Shown here: piece after piece, positions 6,899 through 22,628 of the stretch
Layout: every line of letters begins with the position of its first letter
How positions within the stretch are numbered: the first letter of the stretch is position 1
Source: a virus
Length of the DNA stretch: 24,297 bases
IMG/VR virus record: IMGVR_UViG_3300049008_000021
Span: 1-24,297 of that record
Reading direction: 5' to 3' (one strand)
Program-made: the position numbers and the translations under genes
The notes under the pieces: generated by a model
Database searches by the model: none
What the model was told of the DNA's origin: nothing
What the model saw: the letters and a program-made list of their open reading frames with translations, nothing else

Positions 6899-7339
6899 TT
6901 ACACCGATATGGAATCCGCACCTTTATTAGCTAGTACATCAGCTCTGTCATTACCTTTGTTGCCAGAGTGGCCTTTCACCTTAACATACTCAACATGGTA
7001 ATACTGATTGAGTCTGTCCAGTTCTTGCCACAGGTCAACATTCTTAACAGGCTTCTTTGTAGATGTCTTCCAGCCAGATTTCTTCCAAGACTCTATCCAT
7101 GTTGTAATCCCATTTAATACATAAGCACTGTCTGTGTGAACCTTGATAGGACATCTTCGAGTTAGTGCTTGTAGAGCTTTGATTACTGCCATAAGCTCCA
7201 TTCTGTTGTTTGTGGTAAGCGGTTCTCCTCCAAAGATTTCTTTGGTGTTTCCTTTGTATTCCAGTGAAGCACCCCAGCCACCTACTCCAGGATTCCCACG
7301 GCAAGCTCCATCTGTGTATATCGTTACATAGTCTATCAC
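6899..7339 (-). CDS. rnhA: Ribonuclease HI
   Basis: Degrades RNA in RNA:DNA hybrids and so removes primers during replication. At 146 residues it has the full family length. The active site is complete and falls at the E. coli numbering: D10 ([11 protein letters not shown]), E48 (NNRMEL), D70 (VHTDSAYV), H124 ([11 protein letters not shown]) and D134. The start codon is GTG (7339-7337), preceded by GGAGGAG, and overlaps the upstream stop as TAGTG. T7 itself uses the gp6 exonuclease for primer removal; this phage has both enzymes. The gene-free stretch follows its stop codon. Confidence 0.97.
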
Positions 7340-7508: not shown

Positions 7509-9170
7509 CTATAAAGATGTTACTGGATTATTTGCATCGTACTTCTTAGGTTCTTCCTTAGGCTTAGGTGCAAAACTCTCAAGCATTTTATACCTTCCAG
7601 TCGGATAGTCATAGATAGCTGGTATAACGAAGCCAGTGTCTCCTGTCTCTCTGGCCTTCAATACAGAGATGTTCATAGTTCTTCTGACTGTATCATCTTC
7701 TGCGGAAGAGTCTCTAGCGAAGCCTATAATGTCAGCACATATCTGTTTAATACTACCTGACCCTTTTACATCATCCATTGAAGGCATTACACCTTCTTCA
7801 AACGAACGTGAGCCGTTAGGTGTTTTACGCAAGTGGCTTACTAAACCTATCCACACAGAAAACTGTGTAACAACCCTAAGTAAGTCGTTCATCACCTTAT
7901 CTATAGCTTCGTTTCCTGTTAGTGTACCTGCACCTTCTGACACAAGTATTGTTATGTGGTCAACAAATAGATACTTACACCCAGATAAAGCTAGATATTC
8001 AAGCTTTGCTATCAAGCTTAAGTCGTCAACAGAACCTTGATGGTCAACAAGTATAATCCTATCGTCACCAAATAACCTATCAAAGCCTACTTGTAGTTCA
8101 TCAATTGGGAGTTTGTGTACAGACTCATTTACATTCAGTGCCATACTTGCAAGCTTTCTGGCAGTCTTCTTAGGCAGCTCTTCCAAGGAGACAACACCTA
8201 TCTTGTCAGTAGATGTTTCAATGATGTTGATAATCTCTTCCTTTAACAGTGTAGACTTACCGCTACCAGTTCCTGACACAAATAGCACTATCTCACCTTC
8301 ACGCTTTCCAAGGAGTCTCTTATTAACACCTCCTAGACACTTAGCGTAAGGATGTGCTATCTTGTCTTTGTCATCGACGATTGCAGCCCATATCTCTTTG
8401 CTGGTGATAATCCCAGAAGGTATGTATTTACCAGCGTTAAATACAGCCTGCATCAAGGCTTCGTGTCCTAGTTGCACTAAGCAGTCGCTAGGGTCTTTTA
8501 CAGTGAGCACAGGAAGCCTCACCTTGTCTATACCTATGATAGCAATAGCCTTAGCCTGGCACTTCAAACCTGCTTCATCCTGGTCTAGAAAGAGAATAAC
8601 CTCATCAAATGACCTAATCCATTCTCTAGCTTCTAATAATGAAGCATCCATAGCTGAACTTGATAAAGCTACCACAGGGTAAAATCTTTGATACCTTGTG
8701 TACGAAGCCTGTGCTACACTTAAACAATCAAGCTCACCTTCACAGATAATAAGCTTACGTCCACCAGCGGGGAACAGTTCTTGTCCAAACAGAGCTTTAG
8801 ATTTACCTACCCAACTAAACTCTTTAGGTAATCTCCTCACCTTGTAAGCCGCACTGCTATCATAAGGGTAGTAGTGGGTATCTATCTCCCCATTACCTCC
8901 GTAACTAACCTTACACTTATAAAAGGCTACAACCTCCTTCTTTATACGCCTGTCTTGAAACCCCCTATCTCCAGGGTACCCATGAATATCTTCCACAGTC
9001 TCTCTTGAATAAGATGATGTAGTTGTTGGAGTGAATACTGAAACTCCCTCACTCCCTGCTTTAGTGGCTTTACTGCAACTGAAACAGAAGCTAGAGCCAT
9101 CATCGTATAGTGTTCTTGCATCGCTACTTCCACAAGGACAAGGAAGGTGTTGCTGTGATACGTTTGCCAT
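7509..9170 (-). CDS. DNA primase-helicase (T7 gp4 type)
   Basis: Bifunctional replication enzyme that unwinds DNA and makes primers. Domains in order: zinc-binding domain with C11, C13, C29, C32 (LPCPCGSSDA ... FCFSC; CxC rather than the CxxC of T7); TOPRIM primase with CEGELD (143-148) and FLDQDEAG (194-201, acidic D196 and D198); helicase with Walker A GTGSGKST (300-307), VSLEE (328-332) carrying the catalytic Glu, Walker B-like YLFVDH (400-405), and a late SHLRK...GSGSIKQ motif. At 553 residues it is close to T7 gp4 (566). ATG is preceded by AAGAGGT. A hairpin terminator-like site lies just upstream, so a separate promoter or read-through must serve it. Confidence 0.97.
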   Translation of the reverse strand: MANVSQQHLPCPCGSSDARTLYDDGSSFCFSCSKATKAGSEGVSVFTPTTTSSYSRETVEDIHGYPGDRGFQDRRIKKEVVAFYKCKVSYGGNGEIDTHYYPYDSSAAYKVRRLPKEFSWVGKSKALFGQELFPAGGRKLIICEGELDCLSVAQASYTRYQRFYPVVALSSSAMDASLLEAREWIRSFDEVILFLDQDEAGLKCQAKAIAIIGIDKVRLPVLTVKDPSDCLVQLGHEALMQAVFNAGKYIPSGIITSKEIWAAIVDDKDKIAHPYAKCLGGVNKRLLGKREGEIVLFVSGTGSGKSTLLKEEIINIIETSTDKIGVVSLEELPKKTARKLASMALNVNESVHKLPIDELQVGFDRLFGDDRIILVDHQGSVDDLSLIAKLEYLALSGCKYLFVDHITILVSEGAGTLTGNEAIDKVMNDLLRVVTQFSVWIGLVSHLRKTPNGSRSFEEGVMPSMDDVKGSGSIKQICADIIGFARDSSAEDDTVRRTMNISVLKARETGDTGFVIPAIYDYPTGRYKMLESFAPKPKEEPKKYDANNPVTSL

Positions 9171-9873: not shown

Positions 9874-10329
9874 TTATGTGTTAAATTTAGCTAAACGCTC
9901 AATGTGACTAGCTGTTCTGTGTTCTTTGCAACCCCAAGAGATTTCCTCAATGCGCTTATTGAGCCAGCACTGTTTATAAGGAATATCAAGGAAACATAGT
10001 GACCAAGTTTCAGCATAGTTTAATCCACTCTTGGTCTTGTACTGCTCAACGCAAGTGAACTCCCATTCAGAGTGCGAAGTCTTTTCCATCCACTTTAAAA
10101 CCTTTTCAGATGAGCTAGTGTAGGATTTCCAAGCAGAAGTCACACCAGTGCGTCCTCTATAGCTCTTCTTGCCTAAGTACATTGCACCTGTAGGTAAGTG
10201 CTTCATTACATAGATGAAGCCTTCAAACTCTGCTCCACCCATTTGTTCAGGAAAGTTCCACTGGCCGTTATCGTGGATGTTCTCCACAGTCATTAAGACT
10301 GGACCTTTGTAAGGCTTAAGCTTTGCCAT
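9874..10329 (-). CDS. GIY-YIG-like endonuclease
   Basis: The 151 residues contain GFIYVMKHLPTGAMYLGKKS (37-56), the variant GIY...YIG pair (FIY at 38-40, YLG at 51-53), then KSYRGR with the expected Arg, WKSYTSSS (67-74), and NYAETWS with a Glu (E107) at the usual catalytic position, then CWLNKR with an Asn. These match small phage GIY-YIG family proteins. It probably cuts DNA, either for host genome breakdown, recombination or mobility; the target is unknown. Start ATG has AGAGGCGAAG upstream and overlaps the previous gene by 14 nt. No T7 endonuclease I homologue was recognised in the window. Confidence 0.8.
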   Translation of the reverse strand: MAKLKPYKGPVLMTVENIHDNGQWNFPEQMGGAEFEGFIYVMKHLPTGAMYLGKKSYRGRTGVTSAWKSYTSSSEKVLKWMEKTSHSEWEFTCVEQYKTKSGLNYAETWSLCFLDIPYKQCWLNKRIEEISWGCKEHRTASHIERLAKFNT

Positions 10330-11121: not shown

Positions 11122-11358
11122 TTATTCTAACTCCCTAACGGCCTCGTTATAACAAGATGTCAATGAACATACCATTGCATTTTCAAGTAACTTGTACAAT
11201 CCAGTGGAAATGTCTAAAACCCCATCGTCATCATCGTCTTCATCAAGTTCCACCAAACGTATCGCTAACATATCATCAGCATGAAGTTCTAACAAAGCCT
11301 TGTAATTGGCTATAATCTTCAGAAGCTCATTTCCTATATCTAACTGTTCTTTAGTCAT
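11122..11358 (-). CDS. Small acidic protein, 78 residues
   Basis: Start ATG overlaps the exonuclease stop by 8 nt. Strongly acidic: a run of Asp/Glu (ELDEDDDDDGVLD, about 37-49) separates two helices (GNELLKIIANYKALLELHAD and the C-terminal helix). Small acidic phage proteins near replication genes can act as DNA mimics or partner-binding proteins, but nothing specific is recognised. Confidence 0.65.
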   Translation of the reverse strand: MTKEQLDIGNELLKIIANYKALLELHADDMLAIRLVELDEDDDDDGVLDISTGLYKLLENAMVCSLTSCYNEAVRELE

Positions 11359-12211
11359 AGTCTAATCCTAGTAACTCTCTTGCCAAAGGCCACTCCTCAA
11401 AAGAGAAGTAATCACATATATGGCGTTGTATGTGTATAAGCTTTCCATTTGCTAGCAAATAGTTAGCCCAATCTTTTTCACCATGAACATTATAATAGGC
11501 TTCAATAACAGCCATCTGAAACTCTTCATGTGTTGTACACCTTTCTGTTAGTTTAGCTGCCTTTACAGGACCATGTAAGCGTAACCCAGGAATACAGTCT
11601 GTACTATCTCCCATTATTAGTTGTTGATAGTAAAGTGTCATTGCCTCTAATTCAGACACCACGCTGATTGACTCTTCCTTAGGATGTAGGTGGTTTCCAG
11701 GAATACATCTTAGGTCCTTATCGCCAGTGCAGATTACATAGTCTTTACCAGCCCATTTAGCCTCCTCTGCCCATATACGAACATAATCATCTGTTTCACG
11801 ACCTTCACACAGAACTGCGTAACCGTGCATCACGGATAGAGTCTTTAGTGCAGGAATTACTTTGTAGTCCAAAGGATTAGAGCTTTTATTACGGCGACTG
11901 TGTTTATATCCACAAATAGTTTTACCCTCACTATCCCGCAAGATAGGGTACGTCAAGTTACGGTAGTTTGTAGAACCACCTACACCCATAAGTAACTCAG
12001 TGCAGAACACCGAAGCTTGTAACCGCTTGATACGATTCTCGAAGATACTCCAACACTGTTTAAGGTAATCCACATTCTCAGCGTCTGTGTAAACCTTATC
12101 TGCCTTGCCTGTTGTCTGGAACTCAGGTGTTATCTTGAATACTTCCTTGTCTTCACGAGGAGGACAGCTATAATAGGCAATCATGTCCCCGTCAATAATT
12201 AAAACAGTCAT
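11351..12211 (-). CDS. 5'-3' exonuclease (T7 gp6 type)
   Basis: Removes nucleotides from 5' ends of duplex DNA and RNA:DNA; in T7 it removes primers and supplies nucleotides from host DNA. The metal-binding acidic residues of the FEN/PIN-like nuclease fold are present: LIIDGDM (D7, D9), CEGRETDDYV (135-144), CTGDKDL (161-167) and MGDSTDCIPG (200-209), the last followed by a helix-hairpin-helix-like segment (LRLHGPVKAAKL). At 286 residues it is close to T7 gp6 (300). Start overlaps the upstream homing endonuclease stop as ATGA; the ribosome binding site is weak. Confidence 0.92.
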   Translation of the reverse strand: MTVLIIDGDMIAYYSCPPREDKEVFKITPEFQTTGKADKVYTDAENVDYLKQCWSIFENRIKRLQASVFCTELLMGVGGSTNYRNLTYPILRDSEGKTICGYKHSRRNKSSNPLDYKVIPALKTLSVMHGYAVLCEGRETDDYVRIWAEEAKWAGKDYVICTGDKDLRCIPGNHLHPKEESISVVSELEAMTLYYQQLIMGDSTDCIPGLRLHGPVKAAKLTERCTTHEEFQMAVIEAYYNVHGEKDWANYLLANGKLIHIQRHICDYFSFEEWPLARELLGLDYD

Positions 12212-12972
12212 AGAGGTACGTCCATAGAAACAGGTTCAAGGTTGAATTCTACTCTCTTTACATTCAGAGCAGCAACTGCTTCATAGGCATCAGTGAAATA
12301 ACCTGAACGCCATCTTACACCACTAAGCGTTACAGCAGCTCTCCACTTACCTTTACTACTATCAAAGCTTATTCCTTTTATTCCAGAAGTAGATGTGCTG
12401 TAAGGTGTTGTTTCACTCTTAGCTAGAGCGTCTTCCAAAGAATAGCCTCTACTAAGCCTAGCTCGCAATACATTATCAGGGATTCCAGAGTTTAAAGCTT
12501 CTGTAGCTATAGAATAACCTCTGTCCTTTGCTATTTGTGTATTATTAACCTGCTCAGTAAAGGTTGCCCATCTGCAATTAGATGGTTCGTAATTACCATC
12601 TACATCCTTTCTATCTAAAGATTGCTTATCAGAAGGAAGTTCTCCCATATCTTCTAGGAAGTTAGTAAATGAATCCAGCCATTGAGCGCATACAGAGATT
12701 CCTCTCCCTCCGTAGTTAGCATTGCCTAGGTCGCTGCATCTACGCTTCATATCATACCACGCCTTATAGGTGGCAGGATATGTATGACTGTCTGTTCTTT
12801 TTAACAAGTTACTACAATTTACACACATAGTTGACTTGCCTGTAGTAAGGTCACCTATTCTAACTTCCTTCTCTAAACCACAAGCGCATCTAGCTAGCCA
12901 TGTTATACCTCCTATATCTGGAGGATTTATTAAAACCCATGCACCGAAAACTTCACCGATTTCATGTCTCAT
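12208..12972 (-). CDS. Free-standing HNH homing endonuclease with AP2 domain
   Basis: The frame is open from 12996, but GGAGGAAGC lies directly before the ATG at 12972, so that start is used (254 residues). Order: an N-terminal zinc ribbon (CACG ... CVNC); the HNH core with YKAWYDMKRRC, YGGRGISVC, W..SF.NFL, SLDRKDVDGNYEPSNCRWAT and EQVNN; a middle DNA-binding-like linker; and a C-terminal AP2 domain (GIKGISFDSSKGKWRAAVTL through to EYRT-like YEAVAALNVKR). Such enzymes are selfish elements that cut unoccupied alleles and copy themselves. No intron is seen: both neighbours (5'-3' exonuclease and 281-residue gene) are intact and overlap it by 4 and 11 nt. Confidence 0.92.
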   Translation of the reverse strand: MRHEIGEVFGAWVLINPPDIGGITWLARCACGLEKEVRIGDLTTGKSTMCVNCSNLLKRTDSHTYPATYKAWYDMKRRCSDLGNANYGGRGISVCAQWLDSFTNFLEDMGELPSDKQSLDRKDVDGNYEPSNCRWATFTEQVNNTQIAKDRGYSIATEALNSGIPDNVLRARLSRGYSLEDALAKSETTPYSTSTSGIKGISFDSSKGKWRAAVTLSGVRWRSGYFTDAYEAVAALNVKRVEFNLEPVSMDVPL

Positions 12973-13807
12973 TGCTTCCTCCAAACATATTATCAACTAC
13001 ACCTTGAATATCAGAATAGTCTGTTAGACCGTCCTTCTTGTTAAGTTCTGCTATAACCTTTATTGCCTGCTCTTCTGTAATGTCTGAGTTATTAGCAATG
13101 TCCTCTGCTGACCACAAGTCCACATAGATGTCAGGAAAAGCTATCTCATCAATGGTGGTAATCTTGTCTTTGAGCAGTAAAGCTACATCTATGAACACAG
13201 CTGAATACAACCCAGATTCAATTGCCTTCTTTCCGTTTAGTACACTTGTGACATATACTTGACTATTTCGCGCTGCTTCTCTCTCTTCCAAGAAACACTG
13301 ACCACCTTGTCTTGCATCAGACTCTGACTTATAACCTCCACAAGACCCCCACCAACTGCCATCACACTCCTCATAAATCCACTCCCAGCTTTCACCGTTC
13401 AGGTATCTATTGTAGTCCTGAACTTGGTGTTCAAGCTCTTCTTCGCATAATGTATTACTATAAATGTAACCCACTTGTCCTGAATCCCAAGGACAGCTAA
13501 AGGCTGACGTTGAGACAGTCAACCCTGAGTGGTCTAACAAGAATAGTGGAAGAATGCTGACTGGGGCTTCATCTTTCATGATAGCTTCCTTCATAGTCTC
13601 CCATCCAGACACATCCTCAGAACTCTTTAGGTAATCAAAGCTTTGTCTGTCACCTAGAGTGTGTCTCTCATGAAGGCACAGCATCACAGACTCTTCGGAT
13701 GCAAAGTCTCTAGGATTCCCTGGTTCCTTTTCCAAGCGAACTACTAAGTTGCTTGCGTCTGTCACTTTTTGTGTAGCATCTTTAAAGATTTCATCAATAC
13801 TTTTCAT
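12962..13807 (-). CDS. Conserved phage protein with DHSG/CPWDSGQVG motif plus extra C-terminal module
   Basis: The 281 residues carry a signature I recognise from many tailed phages without known function: LHERHTLGDR, then LPLFLLDHSGLTVSTSAFSC and PWDSGQVGYIY (about 86-118), then YNRYLNGESWEWIYEE and WGSCGGYKSE. After the family's usual end, about 80 further residues (SGLYSAVFIDVALLLKD, LWSAEDI, DITEEQAIKVIAEL) form a module shared with the proteins at 9226-9864 and 10316-10651. Start ATG lies in an ATGA overlap with the upstream gene and has GGAGCT before it. Confidence 0.8.
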   Translation of the reverse strand: MKSIDEIFKDATQKVTDASNLVVRLEKEPGNPRDFASEESVMLCLHERHTLGDRQSFDYLKSSEDVSGWETMKEAIMKDEAPVSILPLFLLDHSGLTVSTSAFSCPWDSGQVGYIYSNTLCEEELEHQVQDYNRYLNGESWEWIYEECDGSWWGSCGGYKSESDARQGGQCFLEEREAARNSQVYVTSVLNGKKAIESGLYSAVFIDVALLLKDKITTIDEIAFPDIYVDLWSAEDIANNSDITEEQAIKVIAELNKKDGLTDYSDIQGVVDNMFGGSNET

Positions 13808-16239: not shown

Positions 16240-18126
16240 TTAATGAACCTCTAGCCAATTCTGGCCTATTTTATACGAACCATCCATTATCTGGATACCA
16301 TAAAGTTTAGCTCCATCAACAAACGCTTGTTTGCTAATCTCAGCCGCCTCTGTAGCATACTGTTCTGGCACCATGAAATCTATTTCATCATGATAGAAGA
16401 TTAATGGTTGGTACGGGATACCTTTAGCTTCCAATCTCTCGACCGTTAGCATAAGGGCTGTTGCACAAGTAACCTTCTCGCAGCTCTGTAGTAGATACAC
16501 CAATAGTTTGTGCTTGCTATCAACATAAACCTTGTTACCTGCTATACTTGGAATATAACCTTTTCCTCCTCTATTTGTTTGTTTATACACATTCTCAATT
16601 GTATTCATAAGCTTTTCAAATCCAGGCATACGCTTAGCAAACTCATCTTTGAACTTCTTACCTTTCACATCATCTCTGCTACTGAACATAGCAGTCCACA
16701 TCTTGCCACCAGAAGCTCCAAACAAGAAGCCATAGAGAAGCGTCTTAGCTGTATCTCTTGATACCACATCACGCATACCAACTTCTTTCAATATACCTGT
16801 AGCTATGTCAGCATTAAACTGATGTATGTCACCTTCTAGCAATAGATGTGTGTATTCCTTGCTGTTCAGGTAATGACCTAATCCTCTAGCTTGGTTCCCT
16901 ACTGAGTCGCAACCTACCATAACCCATCCAGGTTTACACATAAATAGTTCACGCATTTCAGAACCCCAGAGACTTACGGGGCTACCGTCTTTCTTCTTAC
17001 CCCCTTTAGGTACGTTTACGATAAGTTTATGGCGTGTACGCATACTAGGCGTACCTATTGTGAAGCAAGAACCGTGTATCTTATCCTCACTGTCGAGTGC
17101 ATCTACCCACCCTTGTACTGTCCTAAGTCTGGACATATTCACAAGGTACCTTTTATACAGCAAACCGTCACCACCTAGGAACTCCAGAGATGTTTCAGTG
17201 ATTTTAGGTGAAGTCTTTACTAGGCTTCTGCCTTCTCGCTTATAGTTCCATGTGTCAGGCTCCCACCCAGCTCTGTTTAAGAACAGCTTAACATCATCTG
17301 AGCTATCTAAACTCAGATGTTCAATAATTATCCTACAAAAAGGACCTTCTACAGGACGCTCTTCTCCCCAGTATCCTGAGAAAGGTTCCACACCGAAGTA
17401 GTTAGCTGTATGCTGGTCATACGCGCCAGACTTCACCCACTTAGGTTCTTTAATAATTACTACACCACCTACCTTGTCTCTTGGTTTAACTTTGCAACCA
17501 AGTTTAGGCAGTAACGCGTCTCTGGCAGCATCAGTCTCCTTTGTCAAAAGTCCAATCAGATGTTCTGCCTTAGCTCTATCGAAGGGCCACCCTAACTCAG
17601 TTGATGTTGCACACCATTTAGAGACAGCCTGTTCAGCTTTAAGGTATGTTGCAATGTTTGGCTGATTCTTAAACACATTATTAAACTCTTTCATAAGAAT
17701 CTCGTAAGCATCTAAGTTTATCTGAACATCCACTGCACACCTGTGAAGCATCTCCTCTGAGTATTGTGACCAGTCTTCGTGAACAACCTTAGGAACACCC
17801 ATAGCCTCACCCCATACTGCAAGTGAATGCCCTCCCATGCCGAACCTATAAAAATCTAACACTTGGCTCAGTATTAAGGTATCTCTTATCTTTATACGCT
17901 TGTCTGGCTCCCACCCAGTAATCTTTTTGATTGCAGGAAAGTCATAGTTTATAACGTTGTGTCCAACTAACACATCGACACTGTTAAAGTATTCCATCCA
18001 ACCGTTGTCACCTGGAGGCCAGTGATGTCTTTCCCCAGTTTCAACTTCTACTGTACACACTACCCATATCTGAGTTATTGTGTCTAATAAACCATCAGCT
18101 TCTATATCAAATACTACTGTCTTCAA
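16240..18126 (-). CDS. DNA polymerase, family A (T7 gp5 type)
   Basis: Replicative polymerase with proofreading. Exonuclease residues: D7 and E9 (VFDIEADG), D62 (HNVINYD), D133 (CAVDV). Polymerase motif A is VGCDSVGNQARGLGHYL with catalytic D407; motif B is RDTAKTLLYGFLFGASGG with R457, K461 and Y465; motif C is YHDEID with D580. The motif A position equal to T7 E480, normally a Glu that helps exclude ribonucleotides, is Gln (Q412). A segment around residues 210-268 corresponds in position to the T7 thioredoxin-binding insertion, so host thioredoxin may be the processivity factor, but this is uncertain. At 628 residues it is shorter than T7 gp5 (704), with the loss mainly in the exonuclease part. 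ATG follows TTGGAGGT. Confidence 0.97.
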   Translation of the reverse strand: MKTVVFDIEADGLLDTITQIWVVCTVEVETGERHHWPPGDNGWMEYFNSVDVLVGHNVINYDFPAIKKITGWEPDKRIKIRDTLILSQVLDFYRFGMGGHSLAVWGEAMGVPKVVHEDWSQYSEEMLHRCAVDVQINLDAYEILMKEFNNVFKNQPNIATYLKAEQAVSKWCATSTELGWPFDRAKAEHLIGLLTKETDAARDALLPKLGCKVKPRDKVGGVVIIKEPKWVKSGAYDQHTANYFGVEPFSGYWGEERPVEGPFCRIIIEHLSLDSSDDVKLFLNRAGWEPDTWNYKREGRSLVKTSPKITETSLEFLGGDGLLYKRYLVNMSRLRTVQGWVDALDSEDKIHGSCFTIGTPSMRTRHKLIVNVPKGGKKKDGSPVSLWGSEMRELFMCKPGWVMVGCDSVGNQARGLGHYLNSKEYTHLLLEGDIHQFNADIATGILKEVGMRDVVSRDTAKTLLYGFLFGASGGKMWTAMFSSRDDVKGKKFKDEFAKRMPGFEKLMNTIENVYKQTNRGGKGYIPSIAGNKVYVDSKHKLLVYLLQSCEKVTCATALMLTVERLEAKGIPYQPLIFYHDEIDFMVPEQYATEAAEISKQAFVDGAKLYGIQIMDGSYKIGQNWLEVH

Positions 18127-18173: not shown

Positions 18174-18710
18174 TTAATAGTCTGAGTCAGAGCCTTCTTC
18201 GCGCGGCATAGTAGGAACATCTACATATTCAGTAGCTACTGCTGCAAACGCGTCTTCATGCTCCCTTGGTATGAACGGTATAATCTTTGTAACTTGAAGC
18301 TCCATTAGCGTGAAACCGATACCTTTCTTACCTTGTGTGTTGTACGGCCACTTAAACAAGCGAATGTTGGCTGTTGAACCATATCCGATTGTATTAGGGT
18401 CGATAGGTTGAAGTCCACCATTTCGTACAATAACAGGTTTATTTGTCTCGCCTTTTGAGGATATTACTTTCTTCTTAAGACCGACCGTATACACAGGTTT
18501 CTCTACACCATCAACCTCTTCCATCTTAAGTTTAGGAGCGAAACCTTTAGCTGTCCACTCTTTAGATTGAGCAGAGTCATAGGTATAGATTTGAACTTCC
18601 CAGCGAGGGTCGTTCTGGTCAAACACATTAGATGGGTTCTTGGGGTCTAACTTGATGAAACGTAGTAGACATCCAAATAATAATACGGTTTCACTTTTTT
18701 GCTCAGACAT
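18174..18710 (-). CDS. Single-stranded DNA binding protein (T7 gp2.5-like)
   Basis: Coats single-stranded DNA and organises helicase and polymerase. The 178 residues look like an OB-fold core, with WEVQIYTYD (about 38-46), KPVYTVGLKKKVISS, GYGSTANIRLFKWPY and GIGFTLMELQVTKI. The C-terminus is acidic and ends in an aromatic residue (REEGSDSDY), the hallmark of phage and bacterial SSB tails that contact partner proteins. T7 gp2.5 is longer (232). Location between RNA polymerase and DNA polymerase supports the call. ATG follows AAAGAGA; a small hairpin (18725-18744) lies just upstream. Confidence 0.88.
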   Translation of the reverse strand: MSEQKSETVLLFGCLLRFIKLDPKNPSNVFDQNDPRWEVQIYTYDSAQSKEWTAKGFAPKLKMEEVDGVEKPVYTVGLKKKVISSKGETNKPVIVRNGGLQPIDPNTIGYGSTANIRLFKWPYNTQGKKGIGFTLMELQVTKIIPFIPREHEDAFAAVATEYVDVPTMPREEGSDSDY

Positions 18711-19277: not shown

Positions 19278-21497
19278 TTATATAAAGCAATACTCTGACA
19301 ACAGTATGTCAGCTATGTCAAGTGTACCTAATGGGACATCTTCTGGATTTACACCAATATCCTTTAAGATTAAAGTTAAAGGGTCTGCTTTGTAAAGTTC
19401 TACAAATGACTCTCTAACAACTTTATAAAGTACAGGCATATCTTTTAATAAACACCCATAAGAGTCATGGATGGTTGTAACATAAAAATCACACTTATCT
19501 ACAGTAATAGCTAAGTGCGCAGCATCAAGGCTGTGCGTGATGTTAGGAGATGCACCACTTTCTTGTTTACCTTTAGCTGGTTCTAAGATTTCAGTAAAAC
19601 ATACACTGAGGTATCTATCACAAGAGTAATACCCACTTGAGCTAGGCCTACCTACCTTATTGCCGTAAGCTACATGAACCCTTTTGGTTACTCCTTTCAT
19701 GTAATACTGCACAACAGGAAAGTTTGTAACAGGAACAGTCCACTGTAGAAACCGACCATCTGCTTCTGCTAATTTACCTGCCTCAGAGAACATCTTAAGC
19801 AGGTGCATCGGCTTCTCTATTGTATTAATGGAGTCTTCGTGCACAAGTTTACCTAAGTAAGAACACCATGTTTTCTCAACAAAGTTCAAGTGCTCTATGC
19901 CTAGTTTCTTAGCGTCCTCGTACTGCTGAACACCCTTGCCATAGGCTGTACTCCCGTAAGGCATCGTCATAACATTACGCTTAACTACCTTACGGCGTTG
20001 ACTTTCACTCACAAGCTGTGCCCAGAATACAGCCGAGGCTTCTTTAATATCCTCCTTATAAGCCTCTCTATACTCTTTAAGAATAGCAAAGTGTGTATTT
20101 CTCTCAGGAGACCCTTGAGGAAGAGCCACCATTTCTGACACAAGTTTATTAAGGTCTGCTATTACCTCTAAACTCCTTTCCACTGTAGCTAAGTTGATTC
20201 TGTCTCGTATACCTTCCCAGACACTCTCAGCAACATACGCGTAAAGGTCACCTGGGTACTCTGATGGAACAAGGTTAACCCTAGAGGCTGTTATCTCATC
20301 TTTAGTTAAGGCTGCCAGATGTTGACTGCCATTGTTACTTCCATCAATGAATACACACAATCCACTCTCATATCCATAGCTTGTATAATCACCACCATTG
20401 TATGTCTGCCAGATACGGAGTTGCATTAACTCATTACAAGCCGCTATAAATTGCCAAGGTTTGTCCGCAGACATCCACCCTATGTTCACATAAGGTTTCT
20501 CTGCATAACTCAGTAAAGTGTCTTCATTGTCAACAGACCATTGGAACCTTGCCTGTGAACCTATCTTGTCTGTCTTTCTACCATCTTCTCTCCCCGCGTC
20601 CCCTCCCCATAAACTTGCTATTGATAACATTAACCAGAAGTAACCTTCTTCCCCTATAGGAGCCTTGACTGCTCTAATCAGGAGAGACTTAGCCACATCT
20701 GAACCCATCTCATTTAGGTAAGCTGTCTTGCAGTTCTTTCTTCCACGAAAGTCATAGTAATAAAGGTGATAGAAAGGTGCACCCTTCATCTTATCAGCTA
20801 TGGTGAACAAACACTGTGTCTCTCTCAGCTTGCTTATCTTCGCTTGCTGCTTCTGTTGCTTAAAGATACTATCAAACGCCTTAGCTTCTTTCTTTAGCAG
20901 ATGCTTGCCATACTTCAAGATAACCTCATTTACTTTCCACCCTGTCTCCTGAGATTTGTTCAACGAGTTGTACATAATCGGACACAAGCTTGGAGTGAGT
21001 TGAGTCGCAATCTCAGAACACCTTGACTTTACCAAGGGCACGCCTGACTTATGTGTGAAGTTGGTCCAACGCTCGTAAGGGATTGTTCTTGGGAGTTTAT
21101 CTGTGTGTCTAACAGGAATTGCACTCCACAGTCTCTGTAGTAGAGTCAACTCCTTTACTGTAACGACAAACGCACCGTGCCCGTTCTTGCCTTGACCTAT
21201 CTCAGAGGTTATTAAACCAGCAACCTCCAGCTCGTATAGCACAAATGCGCCACAGTGAACAGAAGATAATGTACAAGGAGAGTGTCCTATCTTGGCTAGA
21301 ATAGCTCTACCTATGTCAGCGATAAGTTCAGTAAACTGTATCTGCTCCGAACCTCTACTGTACATATACACAAGATTAGCTGCAATATCTACAGCATCTT
21401 CTACCATGACTCGCCTTAGCAACTTTACATCTGAATTGGGAGGTTCAGATAGCAGGCGCATTGAGATACCTTGGCACAGTTTTTTGTGTAAACTCAC
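19278..21497 (-). CDS. T7-type single-subunit RNA polymerase
   Basis: Transcribes phage genes from dedicated promoters. Motifs: DFRGRK (249-254); motif A VFIDGSNNGSQHLAALT with catalytic D385; motif B RRKVVKRNVMTMPYGS with R502, K506 and Y514; GASPNITHSLDAAHL with H655; motif C TIHDSYG with D678. These equal T7 D537, R627, K631, Y639, H784 and D812. At 739 residues it is 144 shorter than T7's 883; the loss is all before motif A (384 versus 536 residues), so the promoter-binding N-terminal domain is reduced. The C-terminus is SEYCFI instead of T7's FAFA. Start codon is GTG, with AGGAG eight bases upstream, overlapping the previous stop (GTGA). Confidence 0.97.
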   Translation of the reverse strand: MSLHKKLCQGISMRLLSEPPNSDVKLLRRVMVEDAVDIAANLVYMYSRGSEQIQFTELIADIGRAILAKIGHSPCTLSSVHCGAFVLYELEVAGLITSEIGQGKNGHGAFVVTVKELTLLQRLWSAIPVRHTDKLPRTIPYERWTNFTHKSGVPLVKSRCSEIATQLTPSLCPIMYNSLNKSQETGWKVNEVILKYGKHLLKKEAKAFDSIFKQQKQQAKISKLRETQCLFTIADKMKGAPFYHLYYYDFRGRKNCKTAYLNEMGSDVAKSLLIRAVKAPIGEEGYFWLMLSIASLWGGDAGREDGRKTDKIGSQARFQWSVDNEDTLLSYAEKPYVNIGWMSADKPWQFIAACNELMQLRIWQTYNGGDYTSYGYESGLCVFIDGSNNGSQHLAALTKDEITASRVNLVPSEYPGDLYAYVAESVWEGIRDRINLATVERSLEVIADLNKLVSEMVALPQGSPERNTHFAILKEYREAYKEDIKEASAVFWAQLVSESQRRKVVKRNVMTMPYGSTAYGKGVQQYEDAKKLGIEHLNFVEKTWCSYLGKLVHEDSINTIEKPMHLLKMFSEAGKLAEADGRFLQWTVPVTNFPVVQYYMKGVTKRVHVAYGNKVGRPSSSGYYSCDRYLSVCFTEILEPAKGKQESGASPNITHSLDAAHLAITVDKCDFYVTTIHDSYGCLLKDMPVLYKVVRESFVELYKADPLTLILKDIGVNPEDVPLGTLDIADILLSEYCFI

Positions 21498-21953: not shown

Positions 21954-22628
21954 TTAACACAGTTTGTTTTCTTCAAACTCCTTGGTTGTTAGTACATAAT
22001 TCTCTACATCCAACCCCGTACCCTCTTTGTGTAAACTCAACATAAATAATGCACAGCATACTAAGTGAGCTAGATGCGGGAGCCCACTCTCTGAGTCTAA
22101 CCACTCACCTTCGAACACCGCAGCAAGGTGTCTCATTGCGGCATCCTTGTAGCGTTCTTCAGCATTGTCTACAAGCTTCCAGTTTTCTGGAGCATACTTC
22201 TTGGCACCGAACATTAACACATCTACAACAATCTTTAGAGCATTCCATGGGAGCAATCCCCACTGGCGTTTGTTGGAGTCAGACTTCAAGCCCTTATAAG
22301 AGTCAGGTTTCACATCAACAACTTGTGGAGGTGGGTCAATAGGTAGATTTTTAAAGAAGTTATCTGGGACTTCCACTAAAGTATCTCTCCAATTATCAGG
22401 ACAGTAACCGAATGAGTTACTTAAGAGATAAGAAGGGGTGCCTATCCAAGCAGACTCACCTATATCAGGTTTGTCTTTGTAGACGTGCACAGAGCCGTTA
22501 TAGTCTTGGGATACCCATCTGCCAGAGAATCCTTCAACTTTCAATACACAATCTCTAAGAGTCTCTGGTGAGTTTACACTATCCTTTGGACGTTCTTCTA
22601 ATGTACTTCTCCGAGATTGTTTACTCAT
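21954..22628 (-). CDS. MazG/MazZ-type dATP/dGTP pyrophosphohydrolase with N-terminal Trp-motif
   Basis: The C-terminal half (about 115-200) matches the phage dATP/dGTP diphosphohydrolase N-terminal family (MazG-like): KRQWGLLPWNALKIVVDVL, then FGAKKYAPENWK (140-151), ERYKDAAMRHLAAVFEGE (158-175), and DSESGLPHLAHLVCCALFML (178-197). Such enzymes hydrolyse deoxypurine triphosphates to monophosphates. The N-terminal 110 residues are extra: W38-V-S-Q-D42, then G45, V47, V49-Y50-K51 and P54 repeat the spacing of the Trp-rich motif in neighbouring early genes. ATG follows AAGGA and overlaps the previous gene by 8 nt. The related MazZ takes part in 2-aminoadenine genome synthesis, but no PurZ or DatZ is seen here. 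Natural substrate unproven. Confidence 0.85.
   Translation of the reverse strand: MSKQSRRSTLEERPKDSVNSPETLRDCVLKVEGFSGRWVSQDYNGSVHVYKDKPDIGESAWIGTPSYLLSNSFGYCPDNWRDTLVEVPDNFFKNLPIDPPPQVVDVKPDSYKGLKSDSNKRQWGLLPWNALKIVVDVLMFGAKKYAPENWKLVDNAEERYKDAAMRHLAAVFEGEWLDSESGLPHLAHLVCCALFMLSLHKEGTGLDVENYVLTTKEFEENKLC

Follow-up and report, generated by a model that had tools for sequence, protein, structure and literature searches.

The virus contig analysed here (24,297 bases, hereafter the window) encodes a family A DNA polymerase, which is probably active and replicative and comes from a broad lineage of phage enzymes whose nucleotide pocket appears to be rearranged. Judged from sequence comparisons, we put the probability of this reading at roughly 55%. 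In this lineage the motif A glutamate that forms the steric gate is replaced by glutamine (Q412 in the window). A glutamate (E550) has been gained on helix Q, one helical turn past the conserved minor-groove glutamine. Most members have also exchanged the O-helix tyrosine, the partner of the gate glutamate in E. coli DNA polymerase I, for phenylalanine or leucine, and gained a tyrosine on helix Q (Y544). What the present analysis adds is the Gln480-Glu618 exchange (T7 numbering) as a linked change in phage family A polymerases.

Identity and catalytic residues of the polymerase

The features of the window are listed in Table 1. The polymerase ORF scored 51.4 bits against PF00476 (DNA_pol_A; cut-off 34.3), which places the protein in family A, and matched the phrog_17 DNA polymerase with an E value of 1.2e-90. 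A GGAGG-like stretch precedes the TTG start and is, in our own reading, the ribosome site. The AlphaFold model of the protein had a mean pLDDT of 87.8. Its nearest fold was that of T7 DNA polymerase (Z 34.4, rmsd 2.4 over 543 residues, 27% identity), and the model predicts a T7-like right-hand polymerase with an exonuclease.

The catalytic residues of family A are all present: D407 in motif A, R457 and K461 in motif B, and H579-D580-E581 in motif C. T7 residues R429, H506, R518, K522 and Y526 have counterparts in the window protein, as do all four exonuclease carboxylates. Because this catalytic set is conserved, and because the gate glutamine occurs without exception in the uncultured clade of the window (50 of 50 rows), we argue that the protein is probably a working enzyme.

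Besides being the closest solved fold, T7 gp5 shares with the window protein the exonuclease-polymerase layout, Tyr at 526, motif C and R518/K522. Conversely, T7 gp5 has Glu480, Tyr530, Asn611, Thr612 and Gly618 where the window protein has Gln412, Phe469, Val543, Tyr544 and Glu550. The initial annotation described everything catalytic other than the gate as intact. That description stands for the Asp, Glu, Arg, Lys and His set, for Y465 and for the exonuclease carboxylates, but not for the last four of these exchanges. E. coli DNA polymerase I has the family and the catalytic carboxylates in common with the window enzyme and differs by E710, F762, Y766 and A852.

Table 1. Features of the window. 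The codon position of V543 was obtained by counting one codon upstream of Y544.
Feature	Position	Strand	Basis or remark
Family A DNA polymerase with 3'-5' exonuclease domain	16240-18126	-	ORF, 628 aa, TTG start
D7...E9, exonuclease carboxylates (T7 D5, E7)	18100-18108	-	alignment
D62, exonuclease carboxylate (T7 D65)	17941-17943	-	alignment
D133, exonuclease carboxylate (T7 D174)	17728-17730	-	alignment
Q412, codon CAA, steric-gate position (T7 E480, E. coli Pol I E710)	16891-16893	-	phmmer and multiple alignment
Y465, '762' position (T7 Y526, E. coli F762)	16732-16734	-	alignment
F469, codon TTT, in place of O-helix Tyr (T7 Y530, E. coli Y766)	16720-16722	-	alignment
V543-Y544, helix Q (T7 N611-T612, E. 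coli N845-A846)	16495-16500	-	alignment
Q547, conserved minor-groove Gln (T7 Q615, E. coli Q849)	16486-16488	-	alignment
E550, codon GAG, helix Q (T7 G618, E. coli A852)	16477-16479	-	alignment
H579-D580-E581, motif C, intact	16384-16392	-	alignment to T7
gp2.5-like ssDNA-binding protein	18174-18710	-	phrog_112, E 5.2e-8
T7-type single-subunit RNA polymerase	19278-21497	-	739 aa; PF00940, E 9.8e-63
5'-3' exonuclease	11351-12211	-	phrog_107, E 3e-35
Toprim/DnaB-type primase-helicase	7509-9170	-	PF13155 and PF03796
Type 1 RNase H	6899-7339		PF00075, E 4e-47
Homing-endonuclease-like ORF	9874-10329		phrog_7363 match
Second homing-endonuclease-like ORF	12208-12996		no Pfam match
dATP/dGTP pyrophosphohydrolase family protein	21954-22628		PF18909

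Glutamine at the steric gate

Motif A of the window protein reads D407-S-V-G-N-Q412-A-R414. Q412 fell on T7 E480 by two methods, a phmmer comparison with T7 structures and a multiple alignment. The latter placed T7 residues 475, 480, 526, 530 and 654 on E. coli residues 705, 710, 762, 766 and 882. In all motif A stretches compared, the gate followed the catalytic aspartate at D+5 without a gap. Hence, the assignment of Q412 is independent of the alignment program, and the annotated glutamine at the site of T7 E480 and E. coli E710 is confirmed. The window protein departs twice from the canonical Glu-gate pattern, with Gln412 at E. coli E710 and Phe469 at Y766.

Motif A was covered in 32 of 33 relatives from viral contigs, and all 32 had Gln, which argues against chance or a sequencing error. 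Given this, the ungapped spacing and the agreement of the two methods, Q412 can hardly stem from misalignment, a wrong frame or a miscalled base; nothing in favour of such an artefact was found. Phe occupied position 530 in all 33 relatives. Two window-clade polymerases (L027:1153-3192 and L028:113-2152) carry some tens of extra residues just before motif B; they looked odd at 530, and a normal LYAFLFGA was found after the insertion.

Among named phages, Gln was found at the gate in Pelagibacter phage Kolga, DSS3_VP1 (Naomviridae), CVT22 and Vibrio phage 1.208.B (Zobellviridae), SIO1 (Cobavirinae), CRP-7, Sf13 (Ounavirinae), Aeromonas phage 4L372D and Pseudoalteromonas phage SL20. The groups with a Gln gate include the Zobellviridae, the Naomviridae, Felix O1-like and related phages, and a pelagiphage. 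A Glu gate was found in T7, PS07, JSF31, CRP-143, CRP-804, S45C18, HTVC201P, RB23, Bjorn, Clew-1, LL11 and ICP1, as well as in a T5-like phage, phiVC8 DpoZ and E. coli. As far as these alignments go, Q412 is no quirk of one phage and is shared by a large group of phage polymerases. With Gln fixed in several phage groups, the earlier suggestion of a distinct lineage among phage family A polymerases, marked by this change, is supported; altered sugar or base discrimination, the other earlier suggestion, is a hypothesis. The initial annotation also held that its reading would fall if well-studied relatives with ordinary ribonucleotide exclusion had the same Gln. Named phages SIO1, CVT22 and Sf13 do have it; for these, no exclusion data were found.

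Our larger alignment contained 368 rows, with viral-contig proteins included from 450 aa upwards. Its 269 Gln and 99 Glu rows do not measure prevalence, because the queries were aimed largely at Gln-lineage phages and contigs were duplicated. Written as the residues at 480, 526 and 530, the combinations were QYF (199 rows), EYY (92), QYL (52) and QFY (12), followed by the rarer EFY (6), QFF (4), QLF (2) and ELF (1).

Glutamate at position 618 accompanies the glutamine gate

In a weighted scan of 96 representative rows, position 618 was Glu in 45 of 45 Gln-gate polymerases and in 0 of 51 Glu-gate polymerases; all 51 of the latter had Gly, Ala or Ser. Across the 529 columns scanned, only 480 and 618 had no residue common to the two groups. 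The 368-row set behaved in the same way, with Glu618 in all 267 readable Gln rows (two of the 269, L194 and L390, were unreadable at 618) compared to none of the 99 Glu rows. With Q412 and E550, the window protein carries both parts of this lineage signature. E550 lies on helix Q, three residues beyond Q547.

When column pairs were ranked by shared information, 480-618 came 4th of 126,253, whereas 480-530 came 17,042nd; hence we take 618, rather than 530, as the main partner of 480. The pair 480-612 ranked 15,164th. Most Gln rows have Tyr at the position of T7 T612, as the window does with Y544. Position 530 was Phe or Leu in 257 of the 269 Gln rows, and the remaining 12, which are Naomviridae-like, kept Tyr. 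A coupled Gln480-Phe530 pair, suggested by the pairing in the E. coli enzyme, was considered and rejected on account of its rank and because it is broken in the Naomviridae-like enzymes.

Genome contigs of bacteria and archaea were also scanned, using a pattern that leaves positions 480, 530 and 618 free. This gave 57 loci: 51 with Glu480, Tyr530 and Gly618, four with Gln480, Phe or Leu at 530 and Glu618, and two unreadable at 480. Because the residues immediately preceding 530 are specified in the pattern, many lineages escape it, that of the window included.

The named Gln-gate enzymes resemble the window protein to different extents. The polymerase of roseophage SIO1 (Cobavirinae) shares the Gln gate and Glu618 but has Leu530 and Val612, and its tree position is near the Glu-gate T7-like group. 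Zobellviridae polymerases (CVT22, Vibrio phage 1.208.B and others) share the Gln gate, Phe530, Glu618, Val611 and mostly Tyr612, yet are only about 30% identical to the window protein. The Naomviridae polymerase of DSS3_VP1 has the Gln gate, Glu618 and Tyr612 but differs in retaining Tyr530 and in having Phe526.

Descent of the Gln gate

Such a pattern could also arise by plain descent, which is the strongest rival to the rearranged pocket. One or two ancestors would then have acquired Gln480, Glu618 and Phe530 jointly and passed them on, with little consequence for function and with activity and selectivity like those of T7. We regard this as possible, if somewhat unlikely.

To follow the gate, a tree was built from the 96 rows (45 Gln, 51 Glu; thinned at 60% identity) with columns 480, 526 and 530 removed. 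The first pass took rows of 520 aa or more; genome rows had to reach 350 aa and be readable at 480. Two changes to Gln were recovered. One lies at the base of a large clade, made up of the Zobellviridae proper, Sf13/4L372D/SL20, CRP-7 with the Naomviridae, Kolga and the window's clade; the other leads to the SIO1 group. With columns 611, 612 and 618 also removed, there were still two changes at 480, and two at 618. Constraining all Gln rows to a single clade cost 35.8 log units and was not rejected by the AU test (p 0.167).

These few origins favour plain descent, as does the unremarkable association of 480 with 530 compared to other column pairs. With only two changes at 480, and possibly one, shared ancestry accounts for the pattern almost as well as a functional link would. 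For the same reason, no significance level can be attached to the co-occurrence of Gln480 and Glu618: only two independent pairs could be drawn, too few to reach significance even though both agreed with expectation in almost every pairing. Set against this, 618 alone of the 528 other columns separates the groups without overlap, despite a mean column identity of about 29% in a diverse subset. Moreover, neither 480 nor 618 varies across the Ounavirinae-like and Cobavirinae-like enzymes, much as these differ at other sites.

A possible rearrangement of the nucleotide pocket

Contacts in the E. coli, KlenTaq and Bacillus enzymes suggest that the changed positions lie in, or are sequence-adjacent to, one network. 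For this comparison, we take KlenTaq Asn750 and Gln754 to be E. coli positions 845 and 849. The gate Glu of the E. coli enzyme is hydrogen-bonded to the O-helix Tyr in the closed state, and both residues are called universally conserved in family A (PMC4882331). Elsewhere, the O-helix Tyr is described as strictly conserved outside DpoZ (PMC8599892 section 13). In KlenTaq, water molecules link the gate Glu with helix-Q Asn750 and Gln754 in a single network, which lies on the minor-groove side of the nucleotide being added (PMC7155079). Simulations of Bacillus Pol I have the O-helix Tyr bonding to the helix-Q Gln (PMC12756729).

We propose that Gln, being nearly the size of Glu, would still block the ribose 2'-OH, so that ordinary ribonucleotide exclusion is kept. 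The helix-Q Glu may make up, within the same pocket, for the negative charge or the hydrogen-bond partner that was lost; it might, for instance, fix the position of the Gln amide. Loss of the Tyr-Glu bond cannot be the whole cause, because Naomviridae-like enzymes keep Tyr530 together with Gln480 and the 480-530 coupling is unexceptional.

A relaxed gate is the contrary expectation. The Gln enzyme would be less strict towards ribonucleotides or other 2'- or 3'-modified sugars, and the phage would tolerate or repair the rNMPs. Removing the same residue does open the gate in Bacillus Pol I E658A, where loss of the gate side chain weakened ribonucleotide discrimination, and in Taq E615G (PMC7200780, PMC4215692). 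Gln, by contrast, should retain the bulk that clashes with a 2'-OH. The window encodes an RNase H, which would suit a relaxed gate, but none of 17 long relatives does; hence this gene is not tied to the Gln gate and is likely to be a local acquisition. These 17 are all the distinct window-clade records of at least 60 kb among two sets of relative loci. Altogether, we consider a relaxed gate quite improbable.

A bolder form of the rearranged-pocket reading is that these polymerases are a large natural division with a second solution to sugar selection, in which an amide gate is held by a carboxylate moved to helix Q and sugar, ddNTP or base selectivity is measurably different. This seems to us rather unlikely. 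If true, selectivity would depart from that of the Glu-gate enzymes underlying all textbook models. What the alignments do contain is whole phage groups that have exchanged both of the 'universal' residues, the gate Glu as well as the O-helix Tyr, and that have a matching Glu on helix Q. Gate size and charge would thus be uncoupled in natural enzymes, so that ribonucleotide rejection could be tested with polymerases balanced by evolution. Gln-gate enzymes could also handle modified nucleotides differently, a property with practical value.

In the open-licence literature searched, we found no description of a natural Gln at the gate position and no biochemical test of a Gln-gate enzyme. A screen of 48 viral PolA enzymes selected sequences on residues including D705, K758 and 762; term searches of its text found no mention of positions 710 or 766 (PMC9069017). 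Term searches of PMC6302109 and PMC11348598 had no match.

Comparison with the 2-aminoadenine polymerase DpoZ

The exchange at 530 has a precedent in phiVC8 DpoZ. The window protein has Phe (F469) at the position of E. coli Y766, and in our alignment this residue matches DpoZ F459, for which the same helix-O Tyr-to-Phe exchange is reported (PMC8599892 section 13). The pocket could then be an adaptation to a genome with a modified base, such as 2-aminoadenine, and the window does encode a dATP/dGTP pyrophosphohydrolase family protein. The likeness ends at F469, since DpoZ has a Glu gate and Ala618, besides Leu526 and HDS instead of HDE. Genes of the adenylosuccinate-synthetase family were absent from the 24 kb record and present in only one of the 17 long relatives, records that may be fragments. 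That one PurA-like protein has GDEGKG, unlike the GSTGKG of phiVC8 PurZ, and phiVC8 DatZ had no match in the same record. We therefore regard a modified-base adaptation as highly improbable; a Z-genome, suggested by the shared Tyr-to-Phe exchange and the pyrophosphohydrolase gene, was unsupported by the gate, by 618 and by the searches for a Z cluster.

The PurA-like protein (L472:10024-11082) is encoded in the 80 kb record of L023, which also has a PF18909 protein. PF18909 proteins are present in four of the 17 long relatives.

Genomic context

The polymerase gene sits among other replication genes, those for an ssDNA-binding protein, an RNA polymerase, a 5'-3' exonuclease, a primase-helicase, the RNase H and a DNA ligase. 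No near DNA match to the record was found in the phage collection searched, and no tRNA genes were found in its 24,297 bases. The second homing-endonuclease-like ORF of the window is presumably HNH-like, by its look.

A DSS3_VP1-like polA at L382:2501-5164 is broken inside motif B. The interrupting stretch has 27 in-frame stops and gave no Rfam family at the gathering score; the frame resumes at FAFLYGAG. From its sequence, the insert is intron-like.

RNA_pol-family matches occur in all 17 long window-clade records (G001-G017, corresponding to L007, L015, L017, L023, L029, L031, L061, L065, L067, L068, L090, L092, L102, L107, L117, L123 and L125). In 14 of the 17, a match lies in a giant ORF of 1545-1879 aa; most of these records encode a T7-type RNA polymerase as well, as a separate protein. 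At a guess, the giant protein, a second RNA polymerase-like one, might be virion-associated. Some of the T7-type RNA polymerase genes look intein- or intron-like: either the ORF (1022 and 994 aa) contains a large gap that keeps the frame, or the gene is split in two ORFs (G004:C1:61976-64018, G012:C1:18123-20177, G007:C1:71554-73603 and G011:C1:40064-42161).
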